This document shows, one piece after another, positions 1,820 through 4,800 of a stretch of 64,000 nucleotides of DNA. Numbering within the stretch: position 1 is the first letter of the stretch; the number at the start of each line of letters is the position of its first letter. The position numbers and the translations under genes were made by a program. The notes beneath the pieces were generated by a model. It searched no databases. It saw only the letters and a program-made list of their open reading frames with translations, and was not told the DNA's origin. This DNA is from Lutjanus erythropterus. Lineage: Eukaryota > Chordata > Actinopteri > Lutjaniformes > Lutjanidae. Location of the stretch: assembly GCA_020091685.1 (NCBI GenBank), contig CM034594.1, forward strand, positions 5,888,903-5,952,902, in the 5' to 3' direction.

Positions 1820-4800
1820 GTATCTGAAATGTGTGAACTAGACATCTTTTCCAAATTAAAATAATTAAACATGCATTAAATTCACATTTTGATCTCTTGC
1901 CTTGAGTGCAATTTTGTTTAATGTTTAGTAGGGCTTTACAGAATGTTTCATTCATTGCCATGATATTCAAACAGCAAAATTAGTATTACCATTCATATAT
2001 ATACTCAAAATCACAAAATACCCTAAGGCACTCTCTTTTAAAACAATTAAAATGCCTTTATTGTCACAACATGATCATGTTGAACCTTAAAACAAACAAA
2101 CTATGACATGTTTTGACAGCAAGACAGGTCAAGGAATCTTTGACTCCCAGACAAAGGCTTGATGCCAAAATGGATCAGTTTTGTTTTAAGTCCAACATGA
2201 CCATGTTATGGCAATAAAGGCATTTTAATGTTTTTCAAAGAATCATGGAGTTTTGTGATTTTTGAGCATCCTAACACAAGAGCACCTCAAACAATCTCAA
2301 TAGTCCAGGAAGCGCTCCTACCCAAACAAAAACATAAACAAAATGTAATTGTTTATTTTATCAATTTACAAAATACAAAGTGAGCAAACAGAAGAAAAAT
2401 CAAATCAAATCAATATTTGTTGTGACCGCCCTTTGCCTTCAAAACAGCATTAATTCTTCTAGGTACACCTGCACACAGTTTTGAAGGAACTCAGCAGGTA
2501 GGTTGTTCCAAACATCTTGGAGAACTAACCTCAGTTCTCCTGTGGATGTCGGCTGCCTCAGATCCTTCTGTCTCTTCATGTAATCCCGGACAGACTCGAT
2601 GATGTTGAGATCAGGGCTCTGTGGGGATCATACCATCACTCCAGGACTCCTTGTTCTTCTTTACACTGTAGATACTTCATAATGACATTGGCTGTATGTT
2701 TGGGGTGGTTGTCCTGCTGCAGAATAAATTTGGGGCCAATCAGGTGCTTCACTGATGGTAATGAATGATGGTTAAGTATGTGCCTGTATTTCTCAGCACC
2801 GGGACACAAATCCAACTCCATTTTCAGAAATGCAGCCTCAAACTTGCAAGAACCTCCACCATGCTTCACTGTTGCCTTCAGACACTCTTTATTGTACCGC
2901 TCTCCAGCCCTTTGGTGAACAAACTGCTTCTGCAGTCAAATGTTGCAAACTTCACCTGGGTCCCACTGGTTTCTGCTAGCTCTGAGCTGATGGCACTGCT
3001 GACATCTTCTGATTTGGAAGAGAAGTAAGCATAAAGTGTCTTTTCTCTGCTGCACTAAGTTTCCTTGGTTGATCACTGTATCTGTGGTCCTCAGCGTTCG
3101 TTTCTTTGTGTTTCTTCAAAGAGCTTGAACAGCACATCTTGGCCAGTCTGCTTTGAAATCTTTGCCTAGAGAGACCTTTGATGCAGTATAACTACCTTGT
3201 GTCTTGTTGTTGTGCTCAGTCTTGTCATTGTGTCTGACCTGACATGAAACTGTCCTCCACAACCTCACCTTGGTAGCAGAGTTTGTTCCTCACCCAGTTT
3301 TAAGCCTCCTACACAGCTGTTTCTGTTTCAGTTAATGACTGTGCCTACATATGAAATTGATGGTCATTAGCACCTGTTTGGTATAATTGGTTAATCATAC
3401 ACCTGACTATGATCCTACAAAATCCCTGACTTTGTGCAAGTGTACCTAGAAGAAATGATGCTGTTTTGAAGGTAAAGGGTGGTCAAACCAGATACTGATT
3501 TGATTTAGAGTTTTCTTCTGTTTGCTCACTTTGCATTTTGTAAATTGATGGAAAAAACAATTAAATTTTATAATCTAGAAAGAATATGGCATATATCTTT
3601 TGGCCTATGCTGTGTGCACGTCGGCTCTGAGGCTTTGAAAATAATCAAATAATTACTGAAGCTTTGAAACCTAAAAAGATATTTGGGACAGCCGTAACAT
3701 TTAGTTTACCTATCATCTCTTACAAGAACTTTCAAGCCATTTTCACCTCAGTTTGACTACATACTATGATAATAAAGACGAGAAGGCGTCTCACAAATAC
3801 TCTGCATGTGTGTGAGTTTACAGGAATGTGAGGTACCAAGGGAAGGGAGTTGGCATTGTCTTCCATCTTACTATGTGTTTAATATCCCAAAGAGTTTCCT
3901 CTTACCTTCAGTCATGAAGTAGGGGATGCGAAACCTTCCCTCCAGGACTCTCTGTCGAAGCACAGGCAGAGTGGGCCCATCGAAGGGCAACGCTCCACAC
4001 ACCAGTACATATAGCACCACCCCCATACTCTGTCAACATGAGAAGATACACACACATGGAGCAAGGTCAGGGCAGCAGATAAATCAATCAGAGGTGTCGG
4101 GATGTAAATAAGATTTTTGTTTGTATTCACAAACTCACATACTGTATACACTATGTGAGTTTGTGAATACAAACAAAAATCTTATTTACATCCCGACACC
4201 TCTGATTGATTTATCTGCTGCCCTGACCTTGCTCCATGTGTGTGTATCTTCTCATGTTGACAGAGTATGGGGGTGGTGCTATATGTACTGGTGTGTGGAG
4301 CGTTGCCCTTCGATGGGCCCACTCTGCCTGTGCTTCGACAGAGAGTCCTGGAGGGAAGGTTTCGCATCCCCTACTTCATGACTGAAGGTAAGAGGAAACT
4401 CTTTGGGATATTAAACACATAGTAAGATGGAAGACAATGCCAACTCCCTTCCCTTGGTACCTCACATTCCTGTAAACTCACACACATGCAGAGTATTTGT
4501 GAGACGCCTTCTCGTCTTTATTATCATAGTATGTAGTCAAACTGAGGTGAAAATGGCTTGAAAGTTCTTGTAAGAGATGATAGATCACACTTTGCTCTTT
4601 GAGTCACCATACATACAGTAATGTTCTCTCTCGTGTGGCTGCAGCCAGTCTGGGGGTCATTTCATTAACGAGAGAACATTACTTTCATTTGAAGGGGATG
4701 CAGTAAGAGACACTCTGTCATTGTCCCCTGTAATGTGTGTACGTGCGTCAGTGTGTTTGTGCGTGTGCACAGGCCGCAGGGTGAGTCAGGTTGGCTAACT

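Follow-up and report, generated by a model that had tools for sequence, protein, structure and literature searches.

A spacerless palindrome at an exon of sik2 in Lutjanus erythropterus raises the question of whether it is a structure of this genome or a product of its assembly. We addressed this question in a window of 64,000 nucleotides, the whole stretch of DNA analysed (assembly GCA_020091685.1, contig CM034594.1, positions 5888903-5952902, + strand), and in sequence upstream of it, where coordinates of zero or below denote bases upstream of window position 1. The features of the locus are collected in Table 1.

Geometry of the palindrome and identity of its exon

The first-pass annotation of this DNA had described an 874-bp palindrome at 3710..4583, in which position x pairs with 8293-x with one mismatch near the axis, and we recovered exactly this structure. 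The arms (3710-4146 and 4147-4583) are 437 bp each and are separated by 0 nt. No indel distinguishes them, and their single mismatch is the C at 4142, whose partner at 4151 is also C, on either side of the axis TGTATACA at 4143-4150. The symmetry stopped at the edges, where 3709 and 4584 are unpaired and 9 of the 30 outward position pairs match (3709/4584 counted). When 304 kb were scanned for spacerless palindromes (104 kb of window and upstream sequence, plus 20 stretches of 10 kb from the same contig), this palindrome scored 434, and one other place, with 29-bp arms at window positions 18118-18175, reached an arm score of 20. The predicted RNA fold of the palindrome (-873.7 kcal/mol, where 20 shuffles averaged -243.0; z = -76.9) indicated that it is not due to chance, and a transcript of it would form a single unbroken hairpin. 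The earlier suggestions of an ADAR substrate and of instability in vivo draw here on this predicted fold and gained nothing further from our analysis. Finally, with the right arm as a query against the genome (937.6 Mb in 444 contigs, very common words skipped), the matches were the two arms only; an inverted copy that maps to the same place, with the spacer absent, is what a fold-back artefact looks like.

The exon in the arm, joined to the next exon, had SIK3 as its best match in a PDB search (3.6e-34, ranked first of 468 matched sequences, the best 60 being listed). Exon order was determined by tblastn with a presumed human SIK2 sequence as the probe, exon numbers being the order of the matches, and the sik2 exons ran in order on the + strand. 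By these similarities the exon belongs to a SIK kinase and the gene is sik2, in agreement with the first-pass annotation, which had placed the exon SMGVV...FMTE in both arms in opposite orientations. A Pfam scan of four proteins gave one weak kinase match, below the cut-off, and none for the other three. The right arm reads in the same direction as the gene, and the downstream sik2 exons lie 3' of it.

Table 1. Features of the sik2 locus, in window coordinates
Feature	Position	Strand	Basis
sik2 exon 1	about -44.4 kb	+	human SIK2 probe
sik2 exon 2, present twice	within -40003..-36798 and -36775..-33542	+	human SIK2 probe
sik2 exon 3	-26.5 kb	+	human SIK2 probe
sik2 exon 4	-12.0 kb	+	human SIK2 probe
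Copy 1, begins upstream of window	-1744..896 (within window 1..896)	+	self-alignment
sik2 exon 5, intact, upstream of window	-1176..-1052	+	human SIK2 probe, alignment
Stretch between copies, 240 bp, ends in (TA)12	897..1136	+	self-alignment
Copy 2, judged false duplicate of -1744..896	1137..3709	+	self-alignment
sik2 exon 5, frame-shifted copy	1693..1819	+	human SIK2 probe, alignment
Presumed Tc1-like element in copy 2, terminal inverted repeats 2340-2479 and 3429-3569	2340..3569	-	self-comparison, ORFs, genome search
Left arm, reverse-complement copy of right arm, judged artificial; antisense exon 6 inside	3710..4146	-	self-comparison, genome search, tblastn
sik2 exon 6 antisense copy, in left arm	3906-4029	-	sequence; tblastn 3907-4029
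Palindrome axis, 10-nt centre CTGTATACAC including single C/C mismatch	4142..4151	.	sequence, pairing, fold
Right arm, judged genuine locus; exon oriented as the gene, with later exons after it	4147..4583	+	self-comparison, tblastn
sik2 exon 6 (SMGVV...FMTE), AG acceptor and GT donor	4264..4387	+	sequence, PDB match, tblastn (4264-4386)
sik2 exon 7	about 8.66 kb	+	human SIK2 probe
sik2 exon 8	9.88 kb	+	human SIK2 probe

Duplicated sequence upstream of the palindrome

Comparison of the window with itself revealed that positions 1-896 are repeated at 2839-3709, and comparison with 40 kb of upstream sequence that -1756..0 matches 1123-2838. Both copies of this left flank end on the same base, and the end of copy 2, at 3709, is the base before the palindrome. 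In the global alignment of the copies we counted 2550 matches and 15 substitutions (about 96% identity), and in places the copies were identical over as many as 300 bases. The indels were one-sided, as 44 shortened copy 2 (by 78 bases) and 4 lengthened it (by 8 bases; sign test on 44 of 48, 1.5e-9), one of the 44 being an edge effect of the block start, without which the count is 43 of 47. By hand count, homopolymers of at least 3 bases held 17 of the 44 losses and runs of 2 held 11, which leaves 16 at other places. Exon 5 could be read unbroken in copy 1 and was frame-shifted in copy 2. The locus thus has two features of a false duplication, namely a pair of near-identical copies a short distance apart on a single scaffold, and sequencing-type errors in one of them (44 of 48 indels, the exon frame-shift, and 13 of 13 indels within the transposable element described below). 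Indels that outnumber substitutions 3 to 1 are unlike neutral divergence, and we rejected the possibility that copy 2 is an old, decaying duplicate on the basis of its 48 indels versus 15 substitutions and the long identical stretches.

The differences between the copies were denser in exon 5 than in the surrounding introns: its 125 bases hold 4 of the 15 substitutions and 7 of the 48 indels, among them 3 of the 4 gains. This is possibly a base-calling effect of base composition.

Of the stretch between the copies, 897-1110 was found once in the genome, and 897-1136 is likely to be both where the intron truly continues beyond 896 and where the assembly broke. Three bp (TAT) are shared at the join 1136/1137, and no base is shared at 3709/3710. 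The 104 kb that we read contained 0 N, so there is no scaffold gap between the copies.

The duplicated block contains a putatively Tc1-like transposable element, bounded by terminal inverted repeats some 140 bp long; it occupies -506..751 in copy 1. Its transposase-like fragment at 2636-2935 matched 0 Pfam families. A related element lies about 750 kb away on the same contig (5139992-5140664, at 5.14 Mb), its likeness being confined to the element, and further matches were 74-89% alike (40 scored of 179 candidates). With the element at 5.14 Mb as an outgroup, all 13 of the 13 indels between the copies were private losses of copy 2. The substitutions within the element were distributed differently in this three-way comparison, with the odd base in copy 1 at 7 sites, in copy 2 at 9, most of which adjoin gaps and depend on gap placing, and in the third element at 9. 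The 7 sites where copy 1 is odd and copy 2 agrees with the third element suggest that copy 2 may derive from the other haplotype, or be mixed with reads of the other element. These sites argue against a pure same-allele error, and not against false duplication.

Elsewhere in the window, stretches at 2034-2241, 13081-13284, 34550-34717 and 60144-60533 are self-complementary at 73-78% identity and are perhaps small inverted-repeat transposons. Open frames on the - strand at about 40167-52541 appear to resemble a PP2A scaffold subunit.

A second duplication was present in the same gene. The segments -40003..-36798 and -36775..-33542 are 98.4% identical and differ by 14 substitutions and 27 indels, 23 of which run in one direction (alignment minus its first 4 bases). 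Each segment holds exon 2, with a frame-shift in the first segment, the shorter one, and an intact frame in the second; a dinucleotide repeat (GA) stands at the join. This repetition of the one-sided pattern suggests that the error recurs in sik2. No palindrome or local duplication of such kind was present in 20 further 10-kb samples from the contig, at thresholds of at least 200 bp and 90% for direct and at least 100 bp and 95% for inverted duplications, suggesting that the errors are clustered at sik2 and are not everywhere in the assembly.

Probable assembly error and rival explanations

On this sequence evidence, the palindrome is very probably an assembly error and not a genomic structure. 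The locus is best read as a mis-joined contig end near (TA)n, where the left flank was falsely duplicated and the right flank copied by fold-back. The assembly would have broken near the (TA)n microsatellite in the sik2 intron between exons 5 and 6. The break would then have been closed with two pieces foreign to this place: a second copy of the left flank, unmerged and of low quality (1137-3709), and after it the initial 437 bp of the right flank in reverse complement (3710-4146). The true intron would run from 896 through 897-1136 with (TA)n, across a missing stretch, to about 4147 and on to exon 6. The indels of copy 2 would be long-read errors, which could have stayed unpolished as reads match copy 1 better. 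The left arm probably originated in a fold-back read or in the traversal of the assembly graph at a contig end, and the 10-nt centre CTGTATACAC, left by the single mismatch, would fit a fold-back at a short natural inverted repeat.

The first-pass annotation had judged an artefact somewhat more likely than a real palindrome and had named a fold-back read as its cause. The preference was right and is now much stronger, with the false copy 2 abutting the left edge, and the gene and exon also stood; the larger error at 1137-3709 had been missed. A fold-back read remains a plausible cause. Two plain raw passes of one read were rejected, as a single base and no indel sets the arms apart, so that they cannot be two independent raw passes; the assembly-error reading has to assume that both arms were polished or that they are a copied contig end. 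The whole stretch 1137-4146 is suspect on this sequence evidence, because the 2.57 kb that precede the palindrome appear to be a false, indel-ridden duplicate of the upstream flank. Further observations run counter to an artefact: the 16 of 44 losses outside homopolymers, the clustering of differences in exon 5, the 7 sites at which copy 1 is the odd one, the lack of an N run at a gap, and the absence of such structures from the 20 sampled stretches of the contig.

A real and very recent rearrangement by template switching during replication, perhaps on one haplotype only, seems very improbable to us. In such an event, a jump back at the TA repeat would have re-copied 2.57 kb, and a strand switch with fold-back would then have produced the palindrome. 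The order of the pieces can be expressed as three switches, the join at 1136/1137 has the 3 bp (TAT) in common, and the sharing of the third element's base by copy 2, and not copy 1, hints at a second haplotype. However, 44 of 48 one-way indels and a frame-shifted exon fit read error and not a recent copy, the join at 3709/3710 is without a shared base, and the exon 2 duplication in the same gene is equally one-sided. We rejected a tandem duplication accompanied by a real palindrome, as the indels run mostly one way and those inside the element are unique to copy 2. Long spacerless palindromes are also harmful; in E. coli, a 460-bp palindrome led to an unrepairable break and cell death when SbcCD was present (PMC4245961). 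There is very little chance that one haplotype carries a young sik2 rearrangement (the 2.57-kb block plus the palindrome with 437-bp arms) that persists in the germline despite hairpin formation. If it did, the intron would yield a 437-bp double-stranded RNA holding exon 6.

Less probable still is a combination in which the duplication at 1137-3709 is an assembly error and the palindrome is itself real and caused the assembly to break. Real palindromes are known to break assemblies, and no indel separates the two arms, where copy 2 is rich in errors. However, the left arm is joined here only to the false duplicate and to the right arm. The left edge, which abuts copy 2 at 3709/3710, thus lacks the unique outer anchor that a genuine palindrome would have. 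That this edge has no anchor but the false duplicate would be coincidental if the two did not stem from a single error. An assembly error for both the duplicate and the palindrome is the reading that we retain.

Counterparts and consequences

False duplicates can arise from incorrect gap filling or from error-bearing reads (PMC9516828). As in the heterotype and homotype false duplications described there, the sik2 copies are adjacent and near-identical on one scaffold, and one has error-like differences; unlike those, they are without an N gap between them. The word 'inverted' occurs 0 times in that paper, so that an inverted arm is not described there under that word. The palindrome resembles the fold-back artefact reads treated by Breakinator (PMC12870357) in being near-perfect with little or no central sequence, but it is known from an assembly and not from a read. 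In the account given with Pacasus, palindromes stem from whole-genome amplification or from missed SMRTbell adapters, and the artificial inverted duplications reach assemblies, as here (PMC6218980). Among the matches listed for literature on fold-back errors in fish or chromosome-level assemblies, nothing appeared pertinent.

As biology, the palindrome most likely does not matter. It does matter for the sequence record: a sik2 gene model built on this assembly would meet frame-shifted extra exons 2 and 5 and an antisense exon 6, all of which might wrongly be taken as pseudo-exons, as damage to the gene or as exon duplication. The pattern of an intact copy, a copy with one-sided short indels and a dinucleotide repeat at the join, with an inverted edge arm at this locus, may serve as a flag of such errors from sequence only, where reads are absent.
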